Program-made: the position numbers and the translations under genes
The notes under the pieces: generated by a model
Told to the model about the DNA's origin: nothing
Databases searched by the model: none
Seen by the model: the letters and a program-made list of their open reading frames with translations, nothing else
From: Paenibacillus sp. 32352
GTDB taxonomy: Bacteria; Bacillota; Bacilli; Paenibacillales; NBRC-103111
Direction: 5' to 3'
NCBI RefSeq assembly: GCF_002042965.1
Contig: NZ_MZNT01000001.1
Span: 496,001-560,000, forward strand
Length of the DNA: 64,000 nt
Shown: positions 10,662 through 63,771 of the stretch, in pieces
How positions within the stretch are numbered: position 1 is the stretch's first letter
Layout of the letters: each line of letters opens with the position of its first letter

Positions 10662-12473
10662 CTATTTCGGCAAATATAGCTGTTTTTTCTCTTTTATCAT
10701 CTTTTCAAAATCATCGGCAGCTACCGGCTTGCTGAACACATACCCTTGGATTTCATCGCATCCCCGGGACAGAAGAAATTCGAGCTGCTCCATCGTTTCT
10801 ACGCCCTCCGCCAATGATTTCATCTTCAGCTGCTGCGACATTGCAATAAGCGCCGTCACGATAGCGGCATTATCCTCGTCGGATGTGACGTCCCGAATGA
10901 AGGATTGGTCGATTTTTAACGTATGAACGCGGAACCGTTTCAAATAACTGAGGGAGGAGTAACCCGTTCCAAAATCATCGATAGAAATTCGAACTCCCAG
11001 CTCCTTCAAATGGTGCATCGTTTCGATCACTTGCGGGATATGGTTCATAGCAACGCTCTCTGTAATCTCCAAGCACAAATGCTCAGGCTTAAGCCCGGTT
11101 TCGTCCAAAATCTTTTGAATCATCGGAATAAATTGCGGCTGATGGAATTGAATGGCCGAAATATTCACGGAGACGCATAGTGCAGGATATCCGGAATCTA
11201 TCCACTGCTTGGTTTGAATACAGGATTGCTTAAGAATCCAATGACCGATCGGGACGATGAGTCCGGTTTCCTCGGCCAGGGGGATAAATTCAGCGGGAGA
11301 GATCATACCCCATTCCGGATGGTGCCAACGAACGAGCGCTTCCATTCCATTGATGGTGCCGGTGTGCAAATCGACCAAAGGCTGATATAAAATAAGAAGC
11401 TCTTTTCGTTCCAACGCTTTACGCAGATGAAGCTCCATGTTCAGCGTGTGCAGCGAGCGTTTGTTCATGTCGGGATGGTAATAATGGTATGAATTCCCAC
11501 CTTTCTCTTTGGTGCGGTACATGGCATTGTCGGCGTTTTTCAACAAGGTTTCGGCATCAATTCCGTCATTGGGATAAAGGCTGATCCCTATGCTTGCTGT
11601 TACGAACAGCTCATGCTTTTCAATGTGAAAAGGTTCCTTGACAAGATTAAGAATCCCTTTAGCCAGCTGCGCGGGCTCATCGACATGGGTCGTTTGGGAA
11701 AGCAGAATCATAAACTCATCCCCGCCAAAACGGGCGACAACATTGTGGTCTTTGATATATATTTGAAGCTTGCGCGCCAAAGCTTGCAAGAGCTGATCTC
11801 CAATGTGATGGCCTAGCGTATCATTAATGACTTTAAATCGGTCCAGATCAAAAAAAATAACGGCTACCCGATTTCCCGTTTTCTCCGATTCCTGAAGGCA
11901 GGCTTTGAGACGATCATCAAAATAGAGACGGTTCGGAAGCTCTGTCAACGAATCGTGATAAGCCATATGAATGATTTTTTCCTCTGCCCGCTTACGTTCA
12001 TTCATCGCCCGAATGGTTGCATAGGAACGCAGAAATTGATCGTCTTTAGTCTCATTAACAATACGGGCAAACAATTCATCGTGTTGAATGGGATTGTGAT
12101 GGGCGGAAGAGGGGTCAGAGGTTGTAAGCAATTGTATTACGTTTTCGATGTGCTCTTTGTGAATACGTGCGGCAGAGGCTGTTTTGGAACGTTTGCGGTC
12201 TTTTTCACCTAAATAAACGATGCCTTTTTTCGTATCATAATCTTCTACGTGGTGCATGTTGACGATATTAGCGCTATCTAAGAGCCGAAACCCGTCCTCG
12301 AACAGCCATTCTTCCAAATTATCGAAAGAAAAATCAAGATAATACTGCTGATCCTTGGTGTGAACGATAACTTCACGTTCTCGAATCTTATCGATTTTGA
12401 CAACACTGCTCGAATCCAAGATGATAATTTCCGACCCTCTCTTGCCGTCTCGTGTCACAGGAATTTTCTGCAT
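10662..12473 (-). CDS. LytTR-GGDEF-EAL fusion protein
   Basis: 603 residues with three domains. Residues 1-100 fit a LytTR DNA-binding domain (IIILDSSSVVKIDKI, then FSFDNLEEWLFEDGFRLLD and NIVNMHHVEDYD). A GGDEF domain follows with an intact RFGGDEF near 245, then an EAL domain with EALVRW near 377, DDFGTGYSSL and SLAEGVET, so both halves look catalytically competent. GGAG at 12483-12486 fits the ATG at 12473 better than that at 12488. It lies 58 bases downstream of agrD on the same strand, after a hairpin. It may couple DNA binding, or the agr signal, to c-di-GMP turnover; the coupling is inferred. Confidence 0.9.
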   Translation of the reverse strand: MQKIPVTRDGKRGSEIIILDSSSVVKIDKIREREVIVHTKDQQYYLDFSFDNLEEWLFEDGFRLLDSANIVNMHHVEDYDTKKGIVYLGEKDRKRSKTASAARIHKEHIENVIQLLTTSDPSSAHHNPIQHDELFARIVNETKDDQFLRSYATIRAMNERKRAEEKIIHMAYHDSLTELPNRLYFDDRLKACLQESEKTGNRVAVIFFDLDRFKVINDTLGHHIGDQLLQALARKLQIYIKDHNVVARFGGDEFMILLSQTTHVDEPAQLAKGILNLVKEPFHIEKHELFVTASIGISLYPNDGIDAETLLKNADNAMYRTKEKGGNSYHYYHPDMNKRSLHTLNMELHLRKALERKELLILYQPLVDLHTGTINGMEALVRWHHPEWGMISPAEFIPLAEETGLIVPIGHWILKQSCIQTKQWIDSGYPALCVSVNISAIQFHQPQFIPMIQKILDETGLKPEHLCLEITESVAMNHIPQVIETMHHLKELGVRISIDDFGTGYSSLSYLKRFRVHTLKIDQSFIRDVTSDEDNAAIVTALIAMSQQLKMKSLAEGVETMEQLEFLLSRGCDEIQGYVFSKPVAADDFEKMIKEKKQLYLPK

Positions 12474-46533: not shown

Positions 46534-47757
46534 ATGCAGCGATTAGCATCATTTTTTCGTGAATATCATCCCATTGTCCACGTTCTTCTTTTCGGAACCA
46601 TATTAGCCCGCACAGCCTCCTCTATGAGTATGCCGTTTTTGGCTATCTACTTATCCAAGGATACGCAGCTCAGTCCCGTTCTCATAGGAATGATTATCGG
46701 ATTAGGGCCGTTAGCCTCCACGGTAGGAGGATTCGTCGGCGGAGCGCTGTCGGACAGGCTGGGACGGAAAACCATCATGCTGGCGGCACTGTACGGATGG
46801 GTGCTCGTATTTTTTGGTTTTGCCTTGGTGAAGTCTCCGGTTGCATTCATGCTGCTCAATATGCTGAACGGACTTTGCCGTTCCTTATACGAACCGGTAT
46901 CCCAGGCGTTAATGGCGGACGTGACGGTCAAGGAGAAACGGCTCAAGGTATTTTCCTTACGGTATATTGCCATTAATGTAGGCGTATCGGTGGGGCCGCT
47001 GCTCGGCGCTTTCTTCGGTACGATGGAAGTTTGGCTGCCATTTATGATTACGGGGTTATTTTATCTTCTGTATGCGGCAGGTCTGGGAGTGCTGCTGCGC
47101 AGGTTCGGCATCAAACGGATCGAGGGGGAGAAACGCAGCAGTGTAACGATATTATCCGCATGGAATATCGTACGAAAAGACAGGGTGTTCCGCTTTTATA
47201 TCGGCGGCGCTATCATGGGAGCGATCGGATACTCCCAGATGACCGTGACCTTATCGCAATATATTGAACAAAATATTGCCGGCGGCGCCTCATTATTCGC
47301 GCTGCTTATGAGCCTGAATGCCGTTGTCGTCGTGCTGCTTCAAGTTCCGTTGTCAAGACTGTTCGAACGGTGGGGGCCGATGACAGCTATTGCAATCGGG
47401 AACGTGATGTTTGCCGTAGGGGATATCGGATTCGCTCTGTCGGCGGGCTGGATCAGCTTTATGCTATCCATGTTCTTCTTCACGCTGGGAGAAATTCTGA
47501 ATTATCCGCAGGCAAACGTACTGGTAGACCGGCTGGCACCGGAAGGCATGAGGGGCACTTATTTCGGTGCGCAATCGTTCAATAATTTGGGACATTTCAT
47601 AGGTCCGATGGTGGGGGGTGTCCTTCTTACGCATTGGGGCGGATCGGGACTATTTGTCACAATGGCTGTGATTACCTTGTTCGGAACCTTATTCTACCGC
47701 AGGGGAGAACAATTTTATAAATTAGGTCTAAAGTCCGTGGAAAATTCGCGAAATTAG
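46534..47757 (+). CDS. MFS transporter
   Basis: 407 residues with twelve hydrophobic segments. The MFS signature GGALSDRLGRKTIMLAAL near 69-86 is present, and an RLAPEGMRGTYFGAQ stretch near 328 is typical of drug-exporter-type members. ATG follows AAGGAGAAC. An inverted repeat in its leader suggests repression by a local or distant regulator. Substrate unknown. Confidence 0.9.
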   Translation: MQRLASFFREYHPIVHVLLFGTILARTASSMSMPFLAIYLSKDTQLSPVLIGMIIGLGPLASTVGGFVGGALSDRLGRKTIMLAALYGWVLVFFGFALVKSPVAFMLLNMLNGLCRSLYEPVSQALMADVTVKEKRLKVFSLRYIAINVGVSVGPLLGAFFGTMEVWLPFMITGLFYLLYAAGLGVLLRRFGIKRIEGEKRSSVTILSAWNIVRKDRVFRFYIGGAIMGAIGYSQMTVTLSQYIEQNIAGGASLFALLMSLNAVVVVLLQVPLSRLFERWGPMTAIAIGNVMFAVGDIGFALSAGWISFMLSMFFFTLGEILNYPQANVLVDRLAPEGMRGTYFGAQSFNNLGHFIGPMVGGVLLTHWGGSGLFVTMAVITLFGTLFYRRGEQFYKLGLKSVENSRN

Positions 47758-47834
47758 GTATTAAAGAATATGTATTCCTTAGGGCCTATCTTATATGCTA
47801 GGAATGTCGTATTTTGTTGCGCGAATTGACAGAT

Positions 47835-47936
47835 TTCGATCTCGAAAAGGCAAAGCAGGTGAAAGCTTGTGACGCAAAGCTACAGGGGCTACGAATCCTT
47901 GCAGAGGTTCTTGCCAGCCAGCTGCCGAAGGAACGG
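47835..47936 (+). ncRNA. cyclic di-GMP-I (GEMM) riboswitch aptamer
   Basis: Conserved blocks occur in the right order: AAAGGCAAAGC, a GAAA tetraloop closed by a 6-base stem (GCAGGT/GCTTGT with wobbles), GACGCAAAGCTACAGGGGCTA with the tetraloop-receptor region, a variable stem, then GCCAGC...GCTGCCG. The base aligning with G20 of the Vc2 aptamer is G, which fits c-di-GMP rather than cGAMP. A terminator follows at 47955 and then a small gene, so it probably controls transcription of that gene. Confidence 0.85.
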
Positions 47937-47954
47937 TGTTACGCATAGATAGCG

Positions 47955-47985
47955 GACTCCTGCCTAGGCTCAGAGGGGTCTTTTC
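47955..47985 (+). terminator. expression-platform terminator of the c-di-GMP riboswitch
   Basis: GACTCCT and AGGGGTC (one wobble) close a stem around a CCTAGG-containing loop, followed by TTTT. It sits between the aptamer and the ribosome site of the gene at 48030. Confidence 0.7.
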
Positions 47986-48029
47986 GTCGTGTTTGGGTAC
48001 GCAAAAGTTACAGTCAGGAGGGTCTCGCC

Positions 48030-48329
48030 ATGTCGGGTGAAGAACGGGAGTTTATGACCAAGCAAGGCTTTTTTACAAAGCTCGGAAGCAATTTGATCGG
48101 CGTATATTTGTCTAATGAAGGACCCAAGATGTTTATTAACCAGGAAGTGTTCGAGCTGCAGCATCCCTGTTGGGACGTAGAGATGGTTATGGGTAAAAAC
48201 AGCCATCTGCTGACCTTTTACTGGCGCGGGGAAGTGAAATTCTCGTTTCGGTGCGATTTCGTGAACGATTTGTTTTTGAGCCTGTACGATTATTTAAGCT
48301 GCAGACTCGAAGCAAGAAGGCTGGCTTAG
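48030..48329 (+). CDS. orphan protein under c-di-GMP riboswitch control
   Basis: 99 residues, soluble, no recognised family. It is moderately acidic in the first half, with aromatic stretches (LLTFYWRGEVKFSFRCDFVN near 63-82) and two Cys. CAGGAGGG precedes the ATG. The riboswitch immediately upstream implies a job in the motile-to-sessile switch. A strong terminator follows, so it is transcribed alone. Confidence 0.8.
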   Translation: MSGEEREFMTKQGFFTKLGSNLIGVYLSNEGPKMFINQEVFELQHPCWDVEMVMGKNSHLLTFYWRGEVKFSFRCDFVNDLFLSLYDYLSCRLEARRLA

Positions 48330-48339
48330 CCGCCAAAAG

Positions 48340-48376
48340 GAATGCATTGCTGAAAGCAGCGGTGCATTCTTTTTTC
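48340..48376 (+). terminator. terminator
   Basis: GAATGCATTGCTG-AAAG-CAGCGGTGCATTC followed by six T's. Confidence 0.85.
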
Positions 48377-48409
48377 ATATGGCTATTGAAATTAAACTGT
48401 TGTTTTTCG

Positions 48410-48442
48410 ATTAAATAGGAAACCGCCTAATAGAAAGGCGGC
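48410..48442 (-). terminator. terminator of the NTF2-like gene
   Basis: AGGCGG and CCGCCT form a short stem; on the minus strand TTTCCTATTT follows. Confidence 0.6.
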
Positions 48443-48456
48443 TGATTTAGCTATTA

Positions 48457-48870
48457 CTACTTTGAAATGTCAATAATAAAAGTAGTAATTTCTTTAATTT
48501 TTGTTTTGTTCAAACTGCTATTGAAACGATAAATATTACAGAAAGCGTAGCTAATATTGCTTTGGAGATGCAGGGTGCCATGTAAAGAACCGGAATATCC
48601 GTGCGTTATGATATTGCTAATAACTAGCTCCGTTGGCTTCTTGTCCATCAATTTTCCAAGCATTCTGAACACTTGATCCTTGCCCTGTAATACATTGCTG
48701 CCGATAAAATTCCATTGGATATCTTCTATGATGGTATCCGTGATGAAGCCAATATCGTTACGTACAAAGGCAGCATTAAACGCTCTAAGTAATTCTTTTT
48801 TTGGTGCATTTCCACAATCTTCTGCACAAATAATGTTCACTTGATCGTATCCAATGTTGTCCTCTGACAT
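48457..48870 (-). CDS. NTF2-like (SnoaL) family protein
   Basis: 137 residues. The pattern LLRAFNAAFVRNDIGFITDT, then IIEDIQWNFIGSNVLQGKDQV, is that of the NTF2-like superfamily: a cone-shaped fold used for small enzymes and for dimer or ligand binding. Base composition is AT-rich compared with its neighbours, hinting at a recent gain. It is transcribed alone. No substrate can be inferred. Confidence 0.7.
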   Translation of the reverse strand: MSEDNIGYDQVNIICAEDCGNAPKKELLRAFNAAFVRNDIGFITDTIIEDIQWNFIGSNVLQGKDQVFRMLGKLMDKKPTELVISNIITHGYSGSLHGTLHLQSNISYAFCNIYRFNSSLNKTKIKEITTFIIDISK

Positions 48871-62439: not shown

Positions 62440-63771
62440 TTATTCGTCCCGGTGATAGAGTCTGACAACATTTCTGCCCTCCTGCTTTGCTTGATATAGT
62501 GCTTTATCAGCTCGGAGGAAAAGCTCGCTCGGGTCCATGTCGCGGGAAGGGATCATCGTTGCCGTACCGGAGCTGATGGTGATATAAGGAGAATGCTCGG
62601 ATCGGGTATGGGGGATTTGGAGCAGCTCCACCTGCTGCCTGAGATGCTCGGCAACGGTTCTGGCCCCCGCAGCGTCGGTGGAAGGAAGCAGAACGACGAA
62701 TTCTTCCCCGCCATAACGCGCAATAAAGTCTCCGGGCCGCTTGGCGGCTTTCCGCAATGACTCCGCTACACGTTGTAAGCATATATCTCCCTCGATGTGC
62801 CCATATGAATCATTGTATCGTTTGAAAAAATCAATGTCGACCAGGATAAGCGACAGCGGAGTGGACATTCGGCTGCCCTGCTTCCATTCCTTGAGCAGGC
62901 ATTCGTCAAAGCCGCGGCGGTTTGCTACCCCTGTTAAAGCATCGACGGTTGAAATTCTCTGGAGCAGCTCGTTCGTCTCGCGAAGCTGATTCTCCACATG
63001 CTTGCGGGCGGTTATATCCCTGGAGACCGTTATAACTTCTTTATTCAGGCCGCGTTTGTCGAGAATGGGCCTTGCCGTCGTTTCAAACCAAATATAGGTC
63101 CCGTCTTTCTTTCGGATCCGATAAGCGGACAGATCGATACGCAGATCAGTCAAGCTGGGCTCTTTATGCCCATCCGTGAATTGAAGATCGTCCGGGTGCA
63201 GCATATCAAATACGCTGCTCCCTATCAAGGCATCCGGTTCGTAACCGAGCAGGGTTCTAGAGGCGGGAGAAACATATAGGAAAGTGCCGTTCATGGCAAT
63301 TCTTGAAATCATATCCGTCGAGTTCTCGGTTATCATCCGAAACATCTCTTCACTCTCGCGAAGGGCAGCCTCGTTGTTTTTTTGCATCGTGATGTTGCGC
63401 AGATTAATGGTGAATAAATTCTTCCCCGGATAGGTTCGCACATCGAACCATTTGCCCAGCGGGGAGAACCACCATTCAAACGTTTGCGGAGTCTGTGTTG
63501 TCAACGCTGCCAGATAGTAGTCATAGAGAGGGGTACCGGCAGCATCAGGAAAGCATGTCCAAAACGAAGCGCCGAGCAGGTCGCTGCGGCTGCGCTCCAG
63601 TAAGTGTTCAGCGGCGCTGTTCAAATAGATGAAACGTCCATAGCTGTCCAGACTAAAAATACCGTCTGAAATATTCTCCAATATTTCCGATAGAAAGGGG
63701 GAGGATGTAGGGTTCATCTCGCTGATAGAATAGGACTGCTGCTCTTCGACTTCCTTCAACGGTTCTAGCAT
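62440..63771 (-). CDS. PAS-PAS-GGDEF diguanylate cyclase
   Basis: 443 residues from the ATG at 63771. Two PAS domains (about 25-135, ILENISDGIFSLDSYGRFIY; about 145-265, ISRIAMNGTFLYVSPASRTLL) are followed by a GGDEF domain (about 280-440) with an intact RYGGEEF near 350, so it should make c-di-GMP. There is no membrane segment, hence a cytoplasmic sensor. AGGAAGGA lies nine bases before the ATG at 63771; a longer frame starts at 63819 without a site. Confidence 0.9.
   Translation of the reverse strand: MLEPLKEVEEQQSYSISEMNPTSSPFLSEILENISDGIFSLDSYGRFIYLNSAAEHLLERSRSDLLGASFWTCFPDAAGTPLYDYYLAALTTQTPQTFEWWFSPLGKWFDVRTYPGKNLFTINLRNITMQKNNEAALRESEEMFRMITENSTDMISRIAMNGTFLYVSPASRTLLGYEPDALIGSSVFDMLHPDDLQFTDGHKEPSLTDLRIDLSAYRIRKKDGTYIWFETTARPILDKRGLNKEVITVSRDITARKHVENQLRETNELLQRISTVDALTGVANRRGFDECLLKEWKQGSRMSTPLSLILVDIDFFKRYNDSYGHIEGDICLQRVAESLRKAAKRPGDFIARYGGEEFVVLLPSTDAAGARTVAEHLRQQVELLQIPHTRSEHSPYITISSGTATMIPSRDMDPSELFLRADKALYQAKQEGRNVVRLYHRDE

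Follow-up and report, generated by a model that had tools for sequence, protein, structure and literature searches.

The soil bacterium Paenibacillus sp. 32352 carries an RNA predicted to sense c-di-GMP in front of a gene for a protein of only 99 residues, which raises the questions of what the protein is, whether the second messenger controls it, and in which direction. We analysed the locus within a 64-kb window (C11:496001-560000), i.e., the whole stretch of DNA under study, and compared it with its relatives in other genomes. The riboswitch belongs to a known class, and what is new is the undescribed conserved target family tied to this RNA. No paper on gene 48030 was found in the mostly open-access literature searched. 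The riboswitch-gene pair offers a concrete, testable entry into the lifestyle change of Paenibacillus.

The leader carries a c-di-GMP-I aptamer

The original prediction of a c-di-GMP-I riboswitch had named a covariance-model search as its check, and this search scored well over threshold. The region 47839-47929 (+) matched Rfam model RF01051 (c-di-GMP-I) over the full length of the model (positions 1-87), scoring 68.3 bits (E = 2.9e-11) where the gathering threshold is 35, and it was the sole Rfam match over threshold across the 64-kb window. The GAAA tetraloop, the GGCAAA block and the GACGCAAAGC block were all found. The predicted specificity base was found as well: the window sequence has G at 47850, the position selecting c-di-GMP over cGAMP, which we take to be the equivalent of G20 in Vc2 numbering. 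A review (PMC10333796) describes G20 as decisive for c-di-GMP versus cAMP-GMP. Because this ligand-selecting G is present, c-di-GMP, and not cGAMP, is expected to be the ligand of the window aptamer. The features of the locus are collected in Table 1.

Table 1 Features at the riboswitch-gene locus, in window coordinates.
Feature	Position	Strand	Basis or details
Two AAATTAGGT-type copies, putative regulator-binding region	47719-47778 (47719-47733, 47751-47778)	+	Leader comparison
TATGCT, putative -10 element with no obvious -35	47794-47799	+	TATNCT conserved in leaders
c-di-GMP-I riboswitch aptamer	47839-47929	+	RF01051; G20 equivalent 47850, GACGCAAAGC 47871-47880
Candidate antiterminator, P1 3' flank pairing with terminator 5' arm	47930-47961	+	-12.2 kcal/mol, z -0.6 versus shuffles
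Terminator-like hairpin and four U	47954-47984 (stem 47954-47981)	+	-11.4 kcal/mol
Ribosome-binding site AGGAGGG	48016-48022	+	Sequence
Gene for 99-residue protein, undescribed conserved family	48030-48329	+	ATG start; family matches; codon differences versus L011
Terminator-like hairpin past the gene, GAATGCA...TGCATTC, six T	48340-48375	+	Read from sequence

The gene belongs to an undescribed conserved family

Compared with its relative at locus L011, the window gene differs at 5, 0 and 37 sites of codon positions 1, 2 and 3, respectively, a pattern indicating that 48030-48329 is a real gene. It seems to be monocistronic, as suggested by the hairpin past its end, which the terminator scan tool, restricted to loops of up to 8, did not list. 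Pfam, NCBIfam and PHROGs gave nothing for the window protein at E<=1, in line with the claim of a gene of no known family. The NCBIfam Omp28 lipoprotein model matched 13 of the 39 members, at best with E 0.0015, and was set aside as weak; other Pfam or PHROG matches of single members were scattered (best E 0.056 or more), and the single match of a sequence search against solved structures (E 0.4) was set aside too.

The gene had also been called an orphan, which stands insofar as its relatives all lack a known function and fails in that relatives exist in 83 of 197 related genomes, spread over 12 of 44 genera. Searched against 392 genomes from the order, a profile built from 39 members matched 104, of which 83 were strong matches and 21 weak ones, with all 21 weak matches falling in another family, f10. 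Among 299 genomes spread over the phylum there was no match except the window's own, and one short pattern searched against named genomes gave 67 loci, 66 from Paenibacillus and one from Gordonibacillus. Seven columns were invariant among the 39 members (L43, W48, D49, E51, Y64, W65 and G67). A group II intron match (43.6 bits against 40) lies near the gene at L065, positions 407-492.

The aptamer-gene linkage is conserved

The upstream regions of all 84 matches, comprising 83 family members and the distant paralogue L093, were scanned with Rfam. We found a c-di-GMP-I-class aptamer above the cut-off upstream of 76 of the 83 family genes, with at least one such case in each of the 12 genera. 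By batch, upstream matches were obtained at 17/20, 16/20, 20/20, 19/20 and 4/4 loci, the single miss in the 19/20 batch being the paralogue. The aptamers of L023, L025 and L028 are visibly degenerate (31.8 bits for L028; L023 and L025 unfound at E<=0.1), other sequence occupies the place of the aptamer in L040 and L042, L045 has no aptamer, and L047 is without an intact aptamer and has a gene that is itself broken by a stop.

All 77 located aptamers, L028 included, lie on the strand of the gene. In 76 of them the aptamer ends 62-201 nt ahead of the start codon, distances that may shift slightly since start codons were chosen by a simple rule; the aptamer of L085 ends 496 nt ahead, with an ORF between. 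The pocket blocks are exact in 70/77 (GGCAAA) and 56/77 (GACGCAAAGC) aptamers, and both are exact in 53, the window aptamer among them. The 37 gene-bearing genomes searched contain 330 c-di-GMP-I matches, or 8.9 per genome, and the chance of an aptamer within 300 nt upstream of a given gene on the same strand was estimated at about 2e-4; as the genomes are related, the 76 linked cases are not independent.

The linkage supports the view that direct c-di-GMP control is the main known feature of the protein, and the linked family has no description in Pfam, NCBIfam or PHROGs. That the pair was kept in so many relatives suggests that the protein is a so far unstudied member of the c-di-GMP network, and judging by the conserved leaders it very likely functions in the response to c-di-GMP.

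Genome context and longer cousins

The genome of origin (7.93 Mb) contains eight c-di-GMP-I matches that pass the cut-off and a ninth that falls short of it, together with 27 GGDEF and 4 PilZ matches, which suggests that the c-di-GMP signal is probably in use. Two of the GGDEF matches lie inside the window, at 11493-11963 (-) and 62470-62949 (-) (G000:C11:507493-507963 and 558470-558949 in contig coordinates). Elsewhere in the genome, riboswitch-linked genes presumably encode proteins resembling CheX, an EAL protein, a transglutaminase-like protein and large exported proteins, two loci being without assignment. An operon partner was sought and rejected, the recurring neighbours appearing to be ordinary syntenic genes of the region. 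The gene downstream (48457-48870, -; 137 aa) has a sub-threshold SnoaL_2 match (E 0.0016, 19.4 bits against a cut-off of 27).

The weak profile matches in f10 genomes (E 6e-10 to 7e-4) are longer cousins of about 140-170 aa, studied in 20 of the 21 genomes (L162-L181; G334 left out). They share the aligned core RGFY...GP.FF...W.G with the 99-residue family and have longer ends; the four proteins scanned with Pfam, L093 among them, gave no match. None of the 20 loci has an aptamer directly in front of the cousin. A response-regulator-like gene lies upstream in 18/20 loci, a large exported protein is encoded nearby in nine and a transglutaminase-like protein in six. Three of the 20 pieces do contain a c-di-GMP-I-class aptamer, each immediately ahead of a transglutaminase-like gene or at its beginning, and not ahead of the cousin. 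Aptamers adjoining such transglutaminase-like exported proteins were seen at L170 (1459-1538), L175 (1735-1820) and L178 (3116-3200), and also at L005 in the genome of origin. The surroundings of the cousins hint at envelope functions, which is no proof for the 99-residue protein.

Predicted structure of the protein

AlphaFold2 predicted eight strands and a C-terminal helix for the window protein (mean pLDDT 79.4, pTM 0.65), residues 1-10 of the model being unreliable. Neither Foldseek nor a viral structure library returned anything for this model at E<=0.001. In a second look with VIA-align the top rows were PH-like domains (3tvv, 3u12, 3b77, 3hsa and 3dcx; Z 5.8-6.8, the best having Z 6.8 and an rmsd of 4.2 over 87 residues), a level that may reflect a common arrangement only. 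The model of a longer cousin was better (pLDDT 86.4, pTM 0.81); it also had PH-like domains in the top rows, at Z 4.1 or less, and none from Foldseek at E<=0.001. Hydropathy does not suggest a membrane segment, the highest 19-residue value being 0.58 in the window protein and 1.12 in the family. With low confidence, we guess from the models that the product may be a cytosolic PH-like binding module. A PilZ domain was rejected: PF07238 matched neither the window protein nor any of the 39 members scanned with Pfam, and the RxxxR...DxSxxG motif pair occurs in 0 of 83 members.

Expression platform and direction of control

The hairpin at 47954-47984, between the aptamer and the gene at 48030, agrees with the predicted terminator-type platform. 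The terminator is weak in the window copy: its U-run is short, and the scan tool, which asks for at least five T and a loop of 3-8, reported none on the + strand of 47700-48420. Its stem does not overlap P1. In a leader fold that ended at the U-run, the terminator formed alongside P2 and P3, and P1 was not canonical; in a longer fold reaching the start codon, the local terminator was replaced by other pairs. The candidate antiterminator averaged -8.8 kcal/mol over 67 leaders versus -7.1 kcal/mol for shuffles, with a mean z of -0.72 and 18/67 leaders under a z of -1, and group alignments of the leaders gave no consensus antiterminator.

PMC9262584 describes the OFF switch Cd1 as one whose aptamer and terminator may form side by side, and the ON switch pilM as one where each excludes the other. 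As the two can coexist in the window leader, at least in the shorter fold, in the manner of Cd1, we infer that c-di-GMP would switch gene 48030 off, which is the least certain step of the analysis; we rated OFF well above ON for the window switch. The leader 47839-47984 would then be a c-di-GMP-I transcriptional riboswitch serving one gene. At high c-di-GMP, the bound aptamer would close P1 and hold its own 3' strand, leaving the downstream hairpin to terminate transcription; at low c-di-GMP, the 3' strand of P1 would be free to pair with the 5' arm of the hairpin, and the gene would be transcribed. The gene would yield a small, soluble and beta-rich protein, perhaps PH-like, mostly while c-di-GMP is low and the cells are motile or planktonic.

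We regard this model of an OFF riboswitch with a low-c-di-GMP beta-rich protein as probable overall. Its computed parts are the aptamer identity, the specificity base, the coding selection and the conserved linkage. Counted against it are the weak antiterminator, the non-canonical P1 of the shorter fold and the loss of the local terminator in the longer one, the modest outer-helix scores of the short-platform relatives described below, the short U-run of the window, the 7/83 genes without an intact aptamer, and PH-like matches too low to carry much weight. Its inferred parts are the switching direction (OFF), the antiterminator pairing, the protein fold and the role in the cell.

The opposite direction, in which c-di-GMP favours read-through and the protein would be a product of sessile cells with high c-di-GMP, is unlikely on our assessment yet the strongest of the competing readings. 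The computed antiterminator is weak, switches of the c-di-GMP classes can be ON, as in the pilM-type architecture (PMC9262584), and large exported proteins seem to be encoded by two further riboswitch-linked genes in the genome, which would fit a sessile state. Against an ON switch, the window terminator is free of P1 overlap, and eight relatives with short platforms, in which the U-run begins 11-15 nt past the aptamer end, speak for the other direction: in 7/8 (all except L092) an outer helix round the aptamer is predicted to abut the U-run, so that closure of the aptamer would itself form the terminator stem. The outer-helix duplex was clearly beyond shuffles only in L053 (3/500 as good), the others having 22 to 269 of 500.

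Upstream promoter elements and the remaining alternatives

The second AAATTAGGT copy takes the form of a palindrome, AATAGTTC-N4-GAACTATT, in many relatives (e.g., L066 and L070) and is degenerate in the window. With at most two mismatches the palindrome was found in 36 of 77 leaders, about 85-120 nt ahead of the aptamer, with none below four mismatches in 77 shuffles, and TATNCT was found 25-80 nt ahead of the aptamer in 72/77 (shuffles: mean 9.3, maximum 16); the leaders are related, and these promoter and palindrome counts are not independent. A sigma-70 scan gave no promoter at 47794-47799, and no clear -35 was seen by eye in 38 leaders. The exact palindrome is absent from the 64-kb window, where inexact copies elsewhere are at chance level. 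It occurs at one place per genome in 11 of the 13 genomes searched, and nine of these 11 single copies lie at this gene, in g21 genomes (9/10 g21 genomes searched). The remaining two (G071 and the genome of origin) are near genes without a clear tie, and no palindrome regulon was evident. A fair guess from these patterns is that the palindrome is a putative site of a dedicated regulator.

A AAATTAGGTCTAAAG repeat seemed to recur at other riboswitch loci in the genome of origin, two or three in number. As a general riboswitch-promoter motif it was rejected: a pattern drawn up once those loci had been seen had 17 genome matches versus 33 for the reversed control, and three of the 17, the window's included, precede riboswitches. 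Upstream of 40 aptamers unlinked to the gene the pattern was found in none with one mismatch and in two with two (three on the reverse strand). An earlier general riboswitch-promoter pattern was rejected as well (3 matches; control 7).

Such a conserved palindromic promoter site could be the true control of the gene, the aptamer being a relic and the protein having no tie to c-di-GMP. The seven genes without an intact aptamer, the promoter element still readable in L040, L042, L045 and L047, and the exact palindrome, unique in the genome and at this gene in nine g21 genomes, would fit such a reading. However, one of these exceptions, L047, is a broken gene, and the 76 aptamers above the cut-off, as well as the 53 with both pocket blocks exact, speak against this reading, and we consider a relic very improbable.

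Weakest of all, with hardly any probability in our view, is an RNA sensing another cyclic dinucleotide, e.g., cGAMP, or a c-di-GMP-I-GGC variant: the GGC variant model RF03167 scored best in 14 of the 76 above-threshold leaders and the degenerate L034 and L035 have G at the variant position, whereas the window scored best with RF01051, has G at the G20 equivalent (on its role, see PMC10333796) and, with A at 47876, the first A of GACGCAAAGC, lacks the RF03167-defining G. All 14 RF03167-best leaders have A where the RF03167 consensus is G, so c-di-GMP is expected as their ligand, and according to PMC9943018 the RNAs recovered by these models tend to be the same.

Physiological role

Domain searches and the comparison of neighbours gave no domain or operon partner pointing to a role in surface or motility behaviour. 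The leads in this direction are the proposed OFF switch, the CheX- and EAL-like riboswitch-linked genes, and the cousins near response-regulator and exported genes. We tentatively suggest, as a possibility that we consider rather doubtful, that c-di-GMP signalling in Paenibacillus and its relatives has in this family a new protein component devoted to it, a small adaptor of PH-like fold produced only at low c-di-GMP, additionally controlled by a dedicated regulator at its promoter, and relaying the low-c-di-GMP signal to the motility or envelope machinery.

Comparison with known systems

In its predicted model the window protein weakly resembles PH-like domains in having a beta domain and a C-terminal helix, at identities of 4-10%. 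Like the PilZ domain, a c-di-GMP receptor, it is small and beta-rich and occurs in a c-di-GMP context. In architecture the window leader resembles the Cd1 riboswitch of Clostridioides difficile, an OFF switch before flagellar genes, in having a separate terminator that can coexist with the aptamer in a predicted fold; in contrast to Cd1, the window has a short U-run, a weaker antiterminator and a single, non-flagellar target. With the c-di-GMP-I (GEMM-I) class RF01051 the window shares the full-model match, the pocket blocks and the specificity G. The usual named targets of this class are motility, chemotaxis, surface and turnover genes, whereas the gene controlled here belongs to an undescribed family.
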